A stretch of DNA of 64,000 nucleotides from assembly GCA_031292555.1 (NCBI GenBank), contig JARLGV010000067.1, positions 1 through 64,000 of the forward strand, given 5' to 3'. Positions 51,670 to 59,262 of the stretch are shown in pieces. The stretch's first letter is position 1, and each line of letters starts with the position of its first letter. The notes beneath the pieces were generated by a model. It worked only from the letters and a program-made list of their open reading frames with translations. It was not told the DNA's origin and did not search any database. The stretch is from Fimbriimonas sp. Lineage in GTDB: Bacteria > Armatimonadota > Fimbriimonadia > Fimbriimonadales > Fimbriimonadaceae. A program made the translations under genes and the position numbers.

Positions 51670-52989
51670 ATGCAGGATCGCCTGAACATGAACGCGGAGT
51701 ACATTGGAAGGGTGAACCAACTCTCGCGCATTGGTTGCAGAACGATCAGTTGGCTGGCTGGCGCACGCTCTCACCTTCTTCTTTCCTGCCTGATCTGTTC
51801 GTGCGTCGTCACGCCATTTGCTGCGTTCGGGCAGGTTGGTATCCCAGTGCCGATGCCAAGGGTCGACGTACCCCCTCCCGCAATCTCGTTCGCACCTTGG
51901 CGACAAGTCGATCAGACCGACGAGGTCACGGAGTTTGTGGAGGAGTTTCCCAGCACCGTCGTCACCGCATACCCGGAAAACAATGTCGTTCCGCTTCGAG
52001 TATTCGTGCCTGCTAACGTCTCCGGTCCGATTCCGATTGTGCTAGTTCTGCACTACTGGGGCGCCACCGACATCAGGAATGAACGGGCACTCGCTCAAGA
52101 ACTCACGCGGGCCCACATCGCGACGGCGGTGATGACCCTGCCCTACCACTTGGCGCGGACCCCGCCCGGACATCGCTCGGGCGATATGGCGATTCAGCCG
52201 GATCCCGCGAGTTTGGTTTCGACCATGACTCAGGCGGTCCTCGACGCTCGCCGATCGCTCGACTTCCTGGATACTCGCCCCGAGTTCGACCACTCGCGGG
52301 TAGGTATCGCCGGAACTAGCCTGGGAGCCGTCGTCGCCGAATTAGCCTATGCGGTCGATTCGAGGGTGACAAAGGCCACGTTTATTCTAGGCGGCGTCAA
52401 CTTGGCGCACATCGTGTGGTCTTCGTCGCTCTTGGTTCAGCAGCGAGACCTTCTCCGGCGGAAGGGCTATACGGAGGAGAAACTGAGCGAAGCAATCAAA
52501 TCGATCGAGCCTCTAGAATACTTCTCAACCCGTAAGCCGACCTCGTCCTTCGTTATTGCGGGGCTTTATGACACAGTCATCCCGAAGCAATCTGCCGAGG
52601 AACTGATCGAGTCCCTTTCGTCGCCAAAGGTCTTGTGGCTCGACACCGGGCACTACGGAGGGATATTCGTTCAGCGCCGACTCATGCGGGAGGTCGGCAA
52701 GTACTTCCAGATCGAATTCCGAGGCGCCACGTTCGCCGCTCCGAAGAACCTTTATGCTCCGACCATTCGCCTAGGTGTGAAAGTCGACACCGGCAACGGA
52801 TTCGATATCGGCGTCGGATTGGATCTTATCAAGTTCGACAAGCGGGGAGATGGGTTCACCTCGCTCTTTCTCACGCCGAGAGGTCCGCAGCTTTTCGTAG
52901 GCAAGACCATCTATCCGGCGGTAAGCGTCGGTGTTATCGGATCGACTCATTCGGTCGGCATTGGTCTGCTCTGGAGCGCGGTTCTTTGA
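51670..52989 (+). CDS. Exported alpha/beta hydrolase with C-terminal beta domain
   Basis: Up to 439 residues; the first 25 may not be translated. The signal region is HLLLSCLICSCVVTPFAAFGQ. Residues about 80-330 form an alpha/beta hydrolase: PIVLVLHYWGATD (oxyanion), VGIAGTSLGAVVAELA with nucleophile Ser in GTSLG, AGLYDTVIP with the acid, and DTGHYGG with the His. The C-terminal 100 residues (LGVKVDTGNGFDIGVGLDLIKF and following) are beta-rich and Gly-rich, perhaps a small barrel or adhesion part. The next gene starts at a TTGA overlap with its stop. Confidence 0.82.
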   Translation: MQDRLNMNAEYIGRVNQLSRIGCRTISWLAGARSHLLLSCLICSCVVTPFAAFGQVGIPVPMPRVDVPPPAISFAPWRQVDQTDEVTEFVEEFPSTVVTAYPENNVVPLRVFVPANVSGPIPIVLVLHYWGATDIRNERALAQELTRAHIATAVMTLPYHLARTPPGHRSGDMAIQPDPASLVSTMTQAVLDARRSLDFLDTRPEFDHSRVGIAGTSLGAVVAELAYAVDSRVTKATFILGGVNLAHIVWSSSLLVQQRDLLRRKGYTEEKLSEAIKSIEPLEYFSTRKPTSSFVIAGLYDTVIPKQSAEELIESLSSPKVLWLDTGHYGGIFVQRRLMREVGKYFQIEFRGATFAAPKNLYAPTIRLGVKVDTGNGFDIGVGLDLIKFDKRGDGFTSLFLTPRGPQLFVGKTIYPAVSVGVIGSTHSVGIGLLWSAVL

Positions 52990-53765
52990 CGCTGTCCGAA
53001 ATACAGCGTGCATCCAGCGACAATCTGCGGCAGACCTATTTCCGTTTGGCGATGTCGATTCCTGACACCGTGCTTGTCGAAGACCCAGCCTATCGAGCCT
53101 GTTTGGGCGAATTCGAACATCCAATCTGCAATTTCGCCGCCGACCTGAAATTGGACCCGTGGTCGGGACGAAGACTCGCCAATCTCGCAATGTCTCGCCG
53201 ATCATTCAACGTCTATGCGCTTCCGGGCGACGAACCTGCTCACGTGGCCGAATTGTTGATCCGTTGCGACTTTCGCATCAGCTATCGCTTGATTCAGATG
53301 GCATCAGACGGCGCCCCTGTCGAACCCTCTATCGACATGAGAAAGGCGGAATCAGCGCCGATTCGCTCTGAAATCGCTCAGTTCATGACGGACCAGTTTT
53401 TTCCTCGACAGACATCCGGCTTCCGTCGGCGAATCGCCCAGGCAACCGCCGACTCACAGGTACTAGATTTGTACGAGATGATTTGGGGCGATCAGCGCAT
53501 CGGAGGCGTGATGTTGTATGAGACCGAATTGGCGGTTGGCATCTACAACCTCTGCATCGATTTTCCACGGCGCGGACAGGGATTGGGTCGTCTCCTAACG
53601 AATTGGGCGCTGCGACAGGCCAGTCTTCGAACCAAGCCGGCCATTTTGCAGTGTGATCCTCATCTTCAGGAATGGTACGAAAAGCAAGGCTTTTGCCGGA
53701 CCGGAACCATTGATGTTTATACGTTGTCCAATCCGGTGCGGCGCGATATAATGGGAATTACATAA
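52986..53765 (+). CDS. GNAT-family acetyltransferase
   Basis: A 259-residue protein from the TTG at 52986, which overlaps the stop of the hydrolase. The C-terminal half is a GNAT domain: VLDLYEMIWGDQRIGGVMLYE and LAVGIYNLCIDFPRRGQGLGRLLTNWALRQA, the RRGQGLGR loop binding acetyl-CoA. PAILQCDPHLQEWYEKQGFCRTG is the family end. The N-terminal 120 residues are not assigned. It ends one base before the third pseudopilin, so the three form an operon. Substrate unknown. Confidence 0.82.
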   Translation: MTLSEIQRASSDNLRQTYFRLAMSIPDTVLVEDPAYRACLGEFEHPICNFAADLKLDPWSGRRLANLAMSRRSFNVYALPGDEPAHVAELLIRCDFRISYRLIQMASDGAPVEPSIDMRKAESAPIRSEIAQFMTDQFFPRQTSGFRRRIAQATADSQVLDLYEMIWGDQRIGGVMLYETELAVGIYNLCIDFPRRGQGLGRLLTNWALRQASLRTKPAILQCDPHLQEWYEKQGFCRTGTIDVYTLSNPVRRDIMGIT

Positions 53766-53766
53766 G

Positions 53767-54651
53767 GTGCGTCGTTTTGCCCACGCGTTTACGTTGGTCG
53801 AGCTACTGGTTGTTATAGCCATTATCTCAATTGTTGCTGCGGTGCTTCTCCCTGTATTTCTGGGAGCGAGGGGCGCGGTGTTGCGCTCTTCGTGCCAGTC
53901 GCACCTACATCAGATTTCGGTCGGCTCGATGGCGTACAACACCGACTACGACGATCGTTTCATGCCGGTCAACTACCAGCCAGCATCGACTCCGAACTCA
54001 AGAAACGACCGCACATGGGTTCAGATGGTGCTGCCCTATGTTGGAAGTTTCGACGTCTTCCAGTGTCCAGGCGACTACAGTGTCCGGTTGACACCCCAGG
54101 CCACCTTCGATCAAGATCTCGTTCCCGGCGACACCGACTCGCAGTACTACACGGCCTCGCTCCGATCCGATTACGGCTACAACTACCAAAACCTGGCGCC
54201 GATCGTGATAACTCAGAACGGTGGCCACGCGCTTCCCCGGGAGACGAACGAAGTCGCCGACGTATCCAACACGGTGGAATTCATGGATACGGTCTGGAAT
54301 CGCACGACCTCCGGCGTACCATTCGGCGGTGGTAACTGGTTGGTGGTCCCACCTTGCCGATTCTACGAGCCAGCCTCGGTTGGCGAACCGCCGGTTGACA
54401 GCTTTACCGGTGCTCGAAGCGTGGACGTTCAAGTTTTCACAACCTCCGATGGTTGGGAACCGCAGATTGAGTCGGCTTCGAACGTGTTTGGTGGAGCTTG
54501 GCCCTGGCACATGGGCCGTATGAACGTGGTCGAAGTCGACGGCAGCATTAAGTCCCTGGATCCCCGTCAGTTGACGGATGGATGCAATGCCGAGGGTCAA
54601 TGGACCGGCGAAATCACTGATCCAGTGACGTACATGTGGGATCTGCGCTGA
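53767..54651 (+). CDS. DUF1559 / PulG-like pseudopilin (third copy)
   Basis: A 294-residue pseudopilin starting with a GTG at 53767. The leader MRRFAHA is cleaved before [19 protein letters not shown]. Residues 57-63 read YNTDYDD, as in the other two pseudopilins of this window. The C-terminal segment AWPWHMGRMNVVEVDGSIKSLD is of DUF1559 type. Unlike the first two copies it is not followed by a small lipoprotein; a 1496-residue peptidase/permease fusion follows after 120 bases. It lies one base after the acetyltransferase gene. Confidence 0.88.
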   Translation: MRRFAHAFTLVELLVVIAIISIVAAVLLPVFLGARGAVLRSSCQSHLHQISVGSMAYNTDYDDRFMPVNYQPASTPNSRNDRTWVQMVLPYVGSFDVFQCPGDYSVRLTPQATFDQDLVPGDTDSQYYTASLRSDYGYNYQNLAPIVITQNGGHALPRETNEVADVSNTVEFMDTVWNRTTSGVPFGGGNWLVVPPCRFYEPASVGEPPVDSFTGARSVDVQVFTTSDGWEPQIESASNVFGGAWPWHMGRMNVVEVDGSIKSLDPRQLTDGCNAEGQWTGEITDPVTYMWDLR

Positions 54652-54771: not shown

Positions 54772-57700
54772 ATGATCGCCGACCTGATCCGTTTCTTTGA
54801 GCGAGAGATCCCGACTCGAACCCTCACTGCGCAGTCAATCGTTTCACTCAAACGGATCATCGTCGGCATTCTGTTTGGTTCCCTAGCCTGCTTGGCGATG
54901 TCGACGCCTACCGACGACCAGATCAAACAGATCTACCGTCAGCTCCTTCCGCAGGTCCGCCTCGACCGAATCCAGCGGGACTACCGTTCCATCGCCGAAC
55001 TGGGCTCCCGATTGGCTGGTTCGACGGGAGAGGCAAACGCGTTCGACTACGCAGAAGCGACTTTCCGATCGATCGGAGCCGTCAACATTCACCGGGAGAC
55101 GTTTCGCGTAACCGTTCCCGATCCCGATGCGGTTGGCCACCTGGCCGTCTCGGGGCATACGGTCGACGTACTCCCCCTCTGGCCCAATCTGGTGCGCACC
55201 TCTACATGCGACATCAATGGCCCGATCATTTACGGGGGCAACGGTTCGCTCGAAGCCCTTCGGGGAATGGATATTGTCGGCGCTGTCGTCGTGGAGGAGT
55301 TCGGGGTGGGCGCCGCATGGAAGAACGCAGCCAAGCTGGGCGCGGCGGCGATAGTCTTCATCGAGCCGGGCGCCATGCCCAGAGGCGACGCCGAGAACAA
55401 ATTCAGCGCAGTTCCCCTCAGCGTCCCCCGATTCTATTTGCCAATCAAGGTTTCGGGGCCGGTGCTCCAGGCGTGCCAATCGCACCAAACCGTGCGATTG
55501 AGTTGCAGACAAGATTGGGTTGGGCGGACGAGTTGTAACCTGATCGCCGACCTGCCCGGCAATTCTCCGGCACAGAACTCGGAGCCGATCGCGCTCGAAG
55601 CCTATGCCGACTCCATGTCCATTGTCCCGAAGTTGGCGCCGGGCGCCGAATCGATCGGGGGCTTGGCAACCTTGCTCGAAGCCGCTCGCGTTTTTTCCGT
55701 TCGTCCCCATGCACGCCCCCTGCGGCTGATCGTTTCTGGCGCACATTTTCTGGCCCTTCAAGGGGCGCGCGAGTACGTTCAGAAGCGGATGGACACGAAC
55801 GACCTTCCGCCCCTCCTATGCCTAACGCTCGACCTATCTTCGGGAAGCCGCAGTATAGGAAGCTATGCCCGAGGCTGGTTCTACGACTATCGGGACGAAG
55901 AGGAAGACAACGTCCGTCAACTGTCCCGTCTCTTTCGAGCCCATGCGGAGAAGCTGGCCGAAGTCATGGACGTCTCGCCTGCCCGGGTTGTGCTTGTCGA
56001 CGCGGTCAATAACGGGGACGACCGAACCTGGAAGAATAACATCCCCGGCAAGTTCGCCTTGGACTGCGAGCCGATCCTGACATCCGGGATGAATGCCCTC
56101 ACCCTCATGACCGTCGAGGACAGCCGGGAACGCGTGGATACGCCCTTCGACACCATCGATCGGGTCGACATCAGCAACGTTCGTCGCCAGGCGCAGACGG
56201 TGGCAGCGATGCTGCACCACGCCTTGAACGACACGATCGACCGATCGGAAACTTCCGACTACCGTTTGGCCATCGAAGCGGCAAAGCCGGTCGGCATGAG
56301 ATTGACCGGCGGGTTCGCCTCCGTCGCTGGCAAGGTCGTTATCTACGATCCGAACAAGAGCTTCGTTCCCGACACGCCGGTATCCAACTCGATCGCCGCC
56401 GTGTTGGCAACCCAGAAGACGATGATGGGAGTTCGGGGAGACATGCTCCAAGGCGTCGACGACAAAGCGGACTACCGTATTGTCGGAGTCGCGCCAAAGA
56501 CGGCCTATAGTGACGAGAAGCGGTGGATCACTCGGCTTGCCGCATTCCACCTTGATCCGGTTTCCGGAAACATCGATTATGCGCCCTCGTGGGGCACGTA
56601 CGGGGACGAAACCTACCGCATCGAGTTTCCGATGAAGACGTCGGAACGCTCCTCGCCCCTTGTCGTCTTCCACTGTGCGTCCATCGACCTGTACGACTTG
56701 GTCGACCCCCAGGACTTGCAGGCACTTCAATGGGTTTGGATCGGCGATTCGGACACGGGGGCGCATCCGCAAGACTACGGCGTCCTCGGTCCAGGCTTCG
56801 ATACCAAGTTCAGCCCGGAGATCGAAGACACCCAAGTCATTTTTGTAAAACCGGACCTTCACTTCTTTGTTCTGGCCCAAGGCGGCCCGGGCGCGGCACG
56901 CCTGATCCTGACTCACTCGAAGCTGGGGAACGAAGCAGGGGAAGGCTACGTCTCGAAATCCGGTCGGTTCGCCAACCTGCCGCTGCACACTGCCGAAGAT
57001 ATCGTAGCGATCAACGCTACGCGGCTGGCCCGGTTCAAGAAGTACCGGATCATCAGCCCGAGCGTGCTCGAACTGCACAAACAAGCAGAGCAAGAGATTG
57101 CAGCGGCGAAGGCCTCTCAGGCTGCTCGCGATTGGCCAGAAGCCGAACGGCATGCCCGGGCAGCTTGGGGGCTTGCGTTACGCGCTCACCCTGTCCTCCA
57201 AAGCACCGCCAACGACGTGGTGAACGGGGTGATCTTCTACCTGTTTCTGCTCATCCCGTTCAGCTACTTCATGGAGCGGCTCTTGGTCGGCAACCAGCTG
57301 CTTTCCAAGCAGCTCGGTTTCGCGGTCGCGTTCTTCATCGGCGCGTTCCTGCTTCTTCGGCTGATCCATCCCGCTTTTGAGATCGTCAGCAACCCGGCGA
57401 TGATCTTCGTCGCGTTCGTCATGGGCACGTTGAGCCTCATCGTCATGTCGTTCATTCTCGGGAAGTTCGAGGCTTCCCTGAAGGTTGTGCGGCAGGCTCA
57501 AAGCGGCGTTCACGAGGTGGACATCAAGCGCTCCAGCGTGGCGATGGCCGCCTTCAACCTCGGAGTGAGCAACATGCGTCGCCGTAAGGCCCGCACGATT
57601 CTGACCACCTTGACGCTGGTCGTGATGACGTTCATTGTGCTCAGCTTTACTTCGATCGTGCAGGAATTGACGCTCAACGAATACGCCAGCAACACGGTGG

Positions 57701-59262
57701 CACGCTACCCGGGGATTCTCCTGCGAAACCCGGGCTTGGACCCAATGCAGCTGGCCATGTACCGGCAGTTGACAAACGAGTTCTCTGGACGAGCCGTTGT
57801 CGTCCGCCGAGCCGCCTACTACGGGGCGGACATCGGTACGACCGGCGTTCTGACCCTTCAAAGGGCGGACCGCTCCGCCGAAGTAAACGCGTTGGCCGGG
57901 TTCGAGCCGGATGAAACCAAGGTGATGCATCCCCAAGATGCGCTGCTTCCGGGTGGGCGCTGGTTCCGTCCGGGTGAACGCGATGCCATGATCCTTCCCC
58001 AGCGGATCGCCCAGCAGCTCAAGATCGATCCGGACGAGGTAGGCAAAGCCAAGGTCAGCTACGCCGGCGTCGACTACACCGTCGTCGGCATCATCGATTC
58101 TGGCTTCATGCGTTCGCTGGTCGACCTGGACGGCGACGGAATCATGCCTGCCGACTTCAGCCTTTCGAACAAGTACCAGCAGGAGTCCGCCTCCACGACG
58201 AAGGCGTTTCGGAGCTACCTCCGACTGGACCCGAGCTCCTGCTTCATCTTGCCGACTGAAACCGCCCTCAGCCTGGGCGCCGATATTCGGAACATGGCAG
58301 TCGCATTCGAAACGCCGGCTCAAACGAGAAAGGCGCTTGACACGCTCATGCCCAGGCTGCGGATAAACCTGTACGGTTCGGTGCCGAATGGCCACGGCGG
58401 CTTGGAGGTCCGGCAATTCAGCGTCTTCGAGAGTTCGAAGGGCGTCGGATTGGGCCTGGTGTTCATTCAGTTGATCATCGCGTCGGTGTTCGTGTTGAAC
58501 ACGATGGTCGCGAGCGTTTACGAGCGCACGAAAGAGATCGCGATCTTCTCGTCCATCGGCTTGGCGCCCAACCACATAGCGATGCTGTTTTTTGCCGAAT
58601 CGTTGGTTTACGGGGTTCTTGGCGCGGTCATCGGCTACTTCGTGGCCCAAACATCGGCGAAAATTATCGTTTCTACTGGCGCGCTGCCTGGCCTGACCCT
58701 GAATTTCAGTTCCACGTCGGCCGTCATGTCCGCTACGATCGTGATGGCGGTCGTACTGGCAAGCACGATCTACCCCGCTCGCAAAGCCAGCGAGATCGCC
58801 GCTCCCGCGATGAACGAAGAGGTTTTCGAGACAGAGCCGGACGGCGACCTGTGGGACCTTCCCCTACCGTTCAGCATCAACGCCACGGAGGCGGGACCGC
58901 TCATCCGCTTCCTGGGCGAATGGCTGAAGGCGTACGAGGAGTACACGATCGGAGACTTCGTCACCGCAAACACCAAGACGGAGGCGGAAACCCCCGCCGA
59001 TGGGACGGGGACGATTTTCCGGGTATCGACGGTGGCCTGGCTTGCCCCGTACGACCTAGGGATCTCACAAACTCTGCTGCTGACCGCCAGCCCCGCCCAG
59101 GTACCAGGCGTCTACCTGCTCGACCTCAAGTTGGGCCGGATTGCCGGCGACCCAGAGAACTGGCCGATTGTGAACCAGAGATTCCTCGCCAACTTGCGAA
59201 AGCAATTCCTCACCTGGCGCACCCTCGGCCCCGAACTTCGGCGGAAGTATTCGGTGGACTAG
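54772..59262 (+). CDS. PA/M28-like pseudo-peptidase fused to an FtsX/MacB-type permease
   Basis: A 1496-residue membrane protein. After an N-terminal membrane segment (about 28-45), residues 50-500 follow the plan of PA-domain M28 peptidases (AKLGAAAIVFIEPG; then an M28-like domain), but the metal-binding positions are lost: the HxD region reads EAYADS (276-281) and GAxDNxSG reads PGAESIGG (290-297). Residues about 815-900 hold three membrane segments; 940-1360 is an FtsX-like permease with an exported domain and three C-terminal segments (EIAIFSSIGLAPNHIAMLFFAESLVYG at about 1250). A C-terminal cytoplasmic domain ends the protein. No ATPase gene is adjacent. Function unknown. Confidence 0.8.
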   Translation: MIADLIRFFEREIPTRTLTAQSIVSLKRIIVGILFGSLACLAMSTPTDDQIKQIYRQLLPQVRLDRIQRDYRSIAELGSRLAGSTGEANAFDYAEATFRSIGAVNIHRETFRVTVPDPDAVGHLAVSGHTVDVLPLWPNLVRTSTCDINGPIIYGGNGSLEALRGMDIVGAVVVEEFGVGAAWKNAAKLGAAAIVFIEPGAMPRGDAENKFSAVPLSVPRFYLPIKVSGPVLQACQSHQTVRLSCRQDWVGRTSCNLIADLPGNSPAQNSEPIALEAYADSMSIVPKLAPGAESIGGLATLLEAARVFSVRPHARPLRLIVSGAHFLALQGAREYVQKRMDTNDLPPLLCLTLDLSSGSRSIGSYARGWFYDYRDEEEDNVRQLSRLFRAHAEKLAEVMDVSPARVVLVDAVNNGDDRTWKNNIPGKFALDCEPILTSGMNALTLMTVEDSRERVDTPFDTIDRVDISNVRRQAQTVAAMLHHALNDTIDRSETSDYRLAIEAAKPVGMRLTGGFASVAGKVVIYDPNKSFVPDTPVSNSIAAVLATQKTMMGVRGDMLQGVDDKADYRIVGVAPKTAYSDEKRWITRLAAFHLDPVSGNIDYAPSWGTYGDETYRIEFPMKTSERSSPLVVFHCASIDLYDLVDPQDLQALQWVWIGDSDTGAHPQDYGVLGPGFDTKFSPEIEDTQVIFVKPDLHFFVLAQGGPGAARLILTHSKLGNEAGEGYVSKSGRFANLPLHTAEDIVAINATRLARFKKYRIISPSVLELHKQAEQEIAAAKASQAARDWPEAERHARAAWGLALRAHPVLQSTANDVVNGVIFYLFLLIPFSYFMERLLVGNQLLSKQLGFAVAFFIGAFLLLRLIHPAFEIVSNPAMIFVAFVMGTLSLIVMSFILGKFEASLKVVRQAQSGVHEVDIKRSSVAMAAFNLGVSNMRRRKARTILTTLTLVVMTFIVLSFTSIVQELTLNEYASNTVARYPGILLRNPGLDPMQLAMYRQLTNEFSGRAVVVRRAAYYGADIGTTGVLTLQRADRSAEVNALAGFEPDETKVMHPQDALLPGGRWFRPGERDAMILPQRIAQQLKIDPDEVGKAKVSYAGVDYTVVGIIDSGFMRSLVDLDGDGIMPADFSLSNKYQQESASTTKAFRSYLRLDPSSCFILPTETALSLGADIRNMAVAFETPAQTRKALDTLMPRLRINLYGSVPNGHGGLEVRQFSVFESSKGVGLGLVFIQLIIASVFVLNTMVASVYERTKEIAIFSSIGLAPNHIAMLFFAESLVYGVLGAVIGYFVAQTSAKIIVSTGALPGLTLNFSSTSAVMSATIVMAVVLASTIYPARKASEIAAPAMNEEVFETEPDGDLWDLPLPFSINATEAGPLIRFLGEWLKAYEEYTIGDFVTANTKTEAETPADGTGTIFRVSTVAWLAPYDLGISQTLLLTASPAQVPGVYLLDLKLGRIAGDPENWPIVNQRFLANLRKQFLTWRTLGPELRRKYSVD

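Follow-up and report, generated by a model that had tools for sequence, protein, structure and literature searches.

A pseudo-aminopeptidase fused to an FtsX-type permease in Armatimonadota, and the partner genes of a putative envelope machine

The fusion gene and its product

The stretch of DNA analysed here (the window) comprises 64,000 nucleotides of contig JARLGV010000067.1 from a Fimbriimonas genome of the phylum Armatimonadota, and our subject is a single gene at positions 54772–59262 of its forward strand, which encodes a 1496-residue pseudo-M28/FtsX fusion permease. The open reading frame (ORF) begins with ATG and runs through 1496 codons with no internal stop, and full-length homologues exist. 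An earlier reading made without database searches (the sequence-only reading) had described one protein in which an exported peptidase-like half is joined to a full FtsX-like permease and to a C-terminal cytoplasmic domain; that the fusion is real is borne out by the intact ORF and by matches to PF02687 and to M28 and PA profiles.

All features described below lie on the forward strand. Averaged hydropathy places an N-terminal signal or anchor segment at about residues 27–45 (54850–54906; peak at residue 35). It is followed by an ectodomain of the PA/M28 aminopeptidase fold whose catalytic site is lost (about residues 50–500; 54919–56271), recognized by profile matches, by Pfam matches in homologues and by fold superposition. 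The middle extracytoplasmic region (about residues 501–812; 56272–57207) is conserved and is modelled with a low predicted local distance difference test score (pLDDT); profile and Pfam searches that included homologues gave no family match for it. Three extra transmembrane (TM) segments, centred near residues 825, 857 and 886 by averaged hydropathy (57214–57462), stand ahead of the FtsX core, which opens with TM1 at about residues 940–962 (57589–57657; averaged hydropathy peak near 954), a conserved basic RRRKART stretch lying just before it. The MacB-like periplasmic core domain (about residues 970–1225; 57679–58446), which fold alignment also supports, leads into the FtsX C-terminal permease domain with TM2–TM4 (58456–58794; averaged hydropathy peaks near residues 1238, 1278 and 1324), where PF02687 matches residues 1229–1341 (E 1.1e-13) and the MacB, LolC and YtrF chains are matched as well. 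The C-terminal domain (about residues 1355–1496; 58834–59259) is probably cytoplasmic; it is modelled as beta-alpha-beta4-alpha with a pLDDT of about 70–86 and is START/Bet v 1-like at best, at a Z of about 8.5 where unrelated folds score too.

In this member the FtsX C-terminal domain alone passes the Pfam cut-off, the M28/PA half staying below it. The family as a whole is more explicit: among 20 homologues, FtsX (PF02687) was found in all 20, Peptidase_M28 in 15 (best 7e-14), PA in 12 and MacB_PCD (PF12704) in 12. An AlphaFold model of the permease half superposes on BceAB, HrtB and MacB with Z 13–14.

The peptidase-like head

The head has the M28 fold with a PA domain insert. In a phmmer search residues 78–342 matched the M28 aminopeptidase 2ek8, and a 20-member family profile matched the same structure at E 1.6e-22, together with nicalin and the transferrin receptor (TfR1), both of them inactive M28 folds. 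The low-confidence model of the head superposes on the BSAP structure 6hc6 with Z 24 over 358 residues.

The metal site is extensively altered. Alignment to 6hc6 and 2ek8 puts Tyr278 (55603–55605) in place of the first metal-binding His of the HxD motif, Asp280 of that motif being kept; Tyr, Phe or Asn occupies the position in nearly all of 58 aligned homologues, and His occurs once (locus L132). Glu293 (55648–55650) stands at the bridging-Asp position within a PGA[ED] motif that lacks one residue relative to PGAND, some homologues having Asp there. His325-Phe326 (55744–55749) replaces, by alignment to BSAP and 2ek8, the Glu-Glu pair of catalytic base and metal ligand, and His325 is invariant (58/58). 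Asp354 (55831–55833), the third metal-ligand Asp, is retained according to both alignment and conservation. Finally, Asp456 (56137–56139) takes the place of the last metal His, DTPxDT in the homologues corresponding to HTPxDT, which we take to be the M28 motif carrying that ligand; the assignment depends on this motif because the profile alignment stops short of the last His. The 58 homologues have Asp here, apart from rare cases of Asn or Glu.

The five canonical zinc ligands (His, Asp, Glu, Asp, His) are therefore not matched by Tyr278, Glu293, Phe326, Asp354 and Asp456, nor is the catalytic Glu, where His325 stands. The sequence-only reading had held the zinc-binding His and Asp positions to be lost; it was right for both His, but Asp354 is kept and the bridging Asp has become Glu293, and it had missed the replacement of the Glu ligand and of the catalytic Glu. 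The recurrence of the same pattern in the 58 aligned homologues, and again in homologues from other phyla, speaks for a site that has been rebuilt and selected rather than one in decay.

Distribution of the fusion protein

Fusion homologues of the same layout occur in 18 of the 33 genera represented by 61 near relatives, and the wider search of Armatimonadota recovered full-length homologues in 197 of 291 genomes (118 of 156 genera), some families having up to four matches per genome, although a match may represent just a piece of a gene. Outside this phylum the fusion was found in 3 of 106 sampled genomes; within a second phylum it is present in 81 of 84 genomes and within a third in both of the two. 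Full-length homologues across genera and phyla rule out an assembly artefact or a local fusion. The sequence-only reading had said that it would be undone by homologues whose metal ligands are intact and whose genes are separate; instead, the fusion is full-length and its site altered far beyond the genome of the window.

Partner genes and their co-inheritance

No ATP-binding cassette (ABC) ATPase gene lies close to the fusion gene in the Fimbriimonadales flanks read, the two ATPase genes in those flanks being more than 5 kb away and belonging elsewhere. The sequence-only reading, which had noted the lack of an adjacent ATPase, was to this extent correct, but a cognate ATPase exists, on another contig in this genome and in an operon elsewhere. 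In many Armatimonadota the fusion gene is followed in order by genes for an OPT-like protein of about 670 residues, an orphan protein of about 310 residues, a PqqD-like protein, a mini-FtsX of 190–220 residues and a LolD/MacB-type ATPase. All six genes stand in the same order in a genome from another phylum (L190), where they fit within 9.3 kb and overlap or lie close to one another. A different arrangement was seen in four Armatimonadota loci (L127, L128, L131 and L139), where mini-FtsX and ATPase genes lie directly upstream of the fusion gene and the ATPases are extended at the N-terminus by a CxxC...CxxC zinc-ribbon-like segment.

In the genome of the window the set is split, and its last four genes lie together on contig C12 (locus L160), each overlapping the next: the gene of the orphan family at C12:11957-12754 (L160:7958-8755), the PqqD-like gene at C12:12724-13164, the mini-FtsX gene at C12:13161-13736 and the ATPase gene at C12:13733-14476. 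This ATPase shares 71% identity with its operonic counterpart, has intact Walker A, LSGGQ, Walker B and switch His, and finds its best PDB relatives in MJ0796, LolD and MacB. On comparative grounds the assignment of a cognate LolD/MacB-type ATPase to the fusion permease is well supported, because of the operon in relatives, the C12 orthologue and the co-occurrence of the genes; the same three observations rule out an orphan permease working without an ATPase. A gene of the TatA/B/E family (PF02416, 3e-9) was noted just before the four-gene set, at L160:7632-7946.

The remaining partners differ in how readily they can be named. The mini-FtsX carries PF02687, but its TM1–TM2 loop, with hydropathy peaks about 22 residues apart in one genome (G000) and fewer than 100 residues in the longest homologue, is too short for a Porter domain. 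The PqqD-like protein matches PF05402 with 33.6 and 43.1 bits against a cut-off of 23.4 (E 5e-8 to 5e-11). The multispan OPT-like protein of about 670 residues is also encoded in the genome of the window. Neither the OPT-like nor the orphan profile matched anything in the PDB at E up to 1, and Pfam and NCBIfam offered no usable name for them. For the orphan, for which we found no known family, many members share a near-invariant CxxC and further Cys (alignment A2), and it is possibly a metal-binding cytosolic protein; hhalign gave no support for its kinship with either the C-terminal domain or the middle region of the fusion protein.

The separate loci nevertheless go together. Counted over 291 genomes, each count being of genomes and not of independent losses, the fusion and the orphan are both present in 185, the fusion alone in 12, the orphan alone in 5 and neither in 89; for the fusion and the OPT-like protein the corresponding numbers are 189, 8, 7 and 87. 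In 37 Fimbriimonadaceae the agreement is complete for each pair (both 12, either alone 0, neither 25). The fusion and the mini-FtsX agree in 57 of 61 relatives (both 28, fusion alone 3, mini-FtsX alone 1, neither 29), and two of the three genomes with a 'missing' mini-FtsX fall below 90% completeness, the other consisting of 140 contigs. The loci are separate even in single-contig genomes; in G041 they lie near 1.05, 1.30 and 0.86 Mb. To judge from these counts, the parts come and go jointly despite being unlinked and are inherited as a unit. In G043 (L196, L197) we found the partner genes and the OPT-like protein and no full fusion gene, a 593-residue ORF in L197 giving a weak match to the full profile (41.9 bits).

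Homologues in a second phylum

The fusion proteins of the second phylum are larger, 2380–2560 residues (L212:7592-14722, L211, L213, L214, L215, L217 and L218), and a long helical, charged insertion, at about residues 545–1038 in L212, splits their pseudo-M28 domain. In L212 two stretches in the PA region of the ectodomain match LysM above the cut-off (2.3e-9), whereas in L214 LysM is sub-threshold only; as these modules lie inside the ectodomain, they suggest that the head of L212 contacts the cell wall. The ATPase, the PqqD-like protein, the orphan and the 670-residue protein recur in those loci that were read far enough. Two variations concern the multispan proteins: at L211:11990-16069 the OPT-like protein of about 665 residues is present in two tandem copies in one operon, and at L216:4571-6592 an extra multispan protein of about 673 residues, which the OPT-like profile does not match, is encoded between the ATPase and the fusion gene.

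Proposed function and alternatives

Type VII ABC systems use ATP binding and hydrolysis to move stalks and periplasmic domains, and not to carry a substrate across the membrane (PMC5985334; PMC12646458). We consider it probable that the fusion protein is the large permease of an uncharacterised system of this mechanotransmission type, working a pseudo-aminopeptidase head. That the whole forms an ATP-coupled envelope machine driven by the LolD/MacB-type ATPase of the set is, on strong comparative evidence for the coupling, very likely. In this scheme the membrane core would consist of the large permease, paired with the mini-FtsX in genomes that have it, and would be powered by two ATPase subunits; operon structure and co-inheritance suggest the hetero-pair. 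ATP binding and hydrolysis would shift the stalk together with the outer-face head, which would grip or release its ligand without cleaving it. The head is probably a non-catalytic binder, given a site that is lost as an enzyme yet conserved; the evidence thus far agrees with the idea, put forward in the sequence-only reading, of a substrate-binding pseudo-enzyme attached to a transmembrane force-transmitter. The likeliest candidate for its ligand, though a tentative one, would be a peptide or the N-terminus of a protein, as hinted at by the M28 ancestry of the fold, by the PqqD-like protein and by the weak OPT resemblance. The OPT-like multispan protein might then be a membrane partner for handover or uptake, and the PqqD-like and orphan proteins might be cytosolic adaptors. 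A bolder and rather unlikely version would have the type VII motor work a dead aminopeptidase receptor that passes a peptide to an OPT-type transporter, with the PqqD-like protein as peptide binder inside. If this is true, ATP-energised capture would here be coupled to a second transporter, and we know of no characterised system that combines the two.

Several observations weigh against parts of this picture. Structure prediction, to which the sequence-only reading had pointed as a check, places head and permease on known folds, but the two half-models, one per half, were built from alignments of six and five rows and reached mean pLDDT values of only 53 and 47, which is poor, so that the geometry of pocket and stalk is only predicted. 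The name OPT is weakly assigned, as PF03169 was above its cut-off in one member (G068) and in none of 17 members in an hmmscan. Fisher P values for co-occurrence ignore common descent. The second-phylum operon contains no mini-FtsX gene, so the hetero-pair is not universal and the mini-FtsX is, on gene content, an optional partner; a check for its fusion into the homologues of about 2400 residues showed a single FtsX domain in them and no such fusion. Lastly, 25 of the 37 Fimbriimonadaceae sampled lack the system.

Among the alternatives, an FtsEX-like regulator, in which the permease would activate or position a cell-wall hydrolase and the dead head would replace an EnvC-type effector, appears unlikely. 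The LysM repeats of L212 and the helical charged insertion in the second-phylum pseudo-M28 domain would suit it, and FtsEX itself acts by mechanotransmission through a periplasmic partner, according to two reports (PMC7668044, PMC11491553). However, the NCBIfam FtsX family model scores 29 bits against a cut-off of 225, no hydrolase gene was seen in the conserved operon, and the OPT-like and PqqD-like parts would have no role; nor can the system be the division regulator itself, since most of the Fimbriimonadaceae sampled do without it.

Extraction of the Lol or YbbAP type, lifting lipoproteins or lipids from the inner membrane, with the head as a built-in LolA-like chaperone or a former TesA-like hydrolase that now only binds, is quite improbable, even though relatives of the ATPase and permease include LolD, LolC/LolF and MacB and YbbAP-TesA is a type VII ABC system that feeds a periplasmic hydrolase (PMC12646458). 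The NCBIfam LolC/LolE models score only about 24–26 bits against cut-offs of 362–473, and among the operon genes we noticed none for an outer-membrane receptor. To our knowledge, moreover, the M28 fold has no role as a lipid carrier.

We also think it very unlikely that the head still works as a hydrolase, using a modified metal site built from Glu293, His325, Asp354 and Asp456. The replacement residues are conserved, and PDB entry 2anp, an Aeromonas enzyme, bears the title 'Functional Glutamate 151 to Histidine mutant'; by that title, His at the catalytic-Glu position is tolerated there and may, as a change on its own, leave activity. Here, however, both His and one Glu ligand are gone as well, and a canonical-like acid is found at no more than two of the five ligand positions. 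An export or immunity module for ribosomally synthesized and post-translationally modified (RiPP-like) peptides, with the operon-encoded PqqD-like protein (PF05402) as leader-peptide binder, is highly improbable, as the system is near-universal in some lineages rather than sporadic and no radical-SAM or precursor gene was noticed adjoining the operon.

Relation to known systems

The closest parallel to the machine proposed here is YbbAP-TesA, which likewise has a type VII permease with a MacB-type periplasmic core, a separate LolD-like ATPase and a functionally joined exported hydrolase fold (PMC12646458). TesA, however, is a GDSL esterase that is active and separate, and YbbP carries two domains in the periplasm, whereas in the present system the M28 head is dead and fused in cis, with mini-FtsX, OPT-like, PqqD-like and orphan proteins as additions. 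With MacB, LolCDE, FtsEX and HrtBA the system shares the FtsX permease domain, the MacB-like core and the MJ0796/LolD-type ATPase (PMC5985334), to which the fusion adds about 770 ectodomain residues, three TM segments and a C-terminal domain. A Porter domain is present in all type VII members known to the authors of that survey (PMC5985334); the mini-FtsX differs from them in having none. In BceAB, according to PMC12646458, BceB is without the first of YbbP's two periplasmic domains, which we liken to having a bald permease unit beside a headed one; there the two units are in one chain, the head is another and the partner BceS is membrane-intrinsic. The PA-in-M28 layout and fold (Z 24) are those of BSAP/YwaD and the Aneurinibacillus aminopeptidase, which are zinc enzymes with canonical ligands and no permease. 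An M28 fold on a membrane protein is also found in the transferrin receptor, nicalin and nicastrin, where it has no peptidase function; these are eukaryotic and an ABC permease is absent.

A prior description of the system or its parts was not found in open-access full text, most subscription journals being outside this coverage. As far as we can tell, permease and ATPase are of a known kind and the composition is new, an apparently undescribed addition to the small type VII ABC set of FtsEX, LolCDE, MacB, YbbAP and BceAB. It is unusual in that its hydrolase-like partner is dead and fused in cis, in that one permease is without the supposedly universal Porter domain, and in its further conserved parts. 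Its near-universality in at least one phylum and its presence in the majority of genomes of another make a basic role in those envelopes probable, and the conserved, rebuilt pseudo-active site makes the question of the ligand directly testable.

Genes upstream of the fusion

Directly upstream of the fusion gene the window holds, at 51670–54651, alpha/beta-hydrolase-like, GNAT-like and pseudopilin-like genes. The pseudopilin-like gene (53767–54651) precedes the fusion gene as the sequence-only reading had stated, and among the Fimbriimonadaceae compared it ends about 40–120 bp before it. Linkage of the pseudopilin and hydrolase genes to the fusion gene is common to most Fimbriimonadaceae homologues whose flanks were compared.

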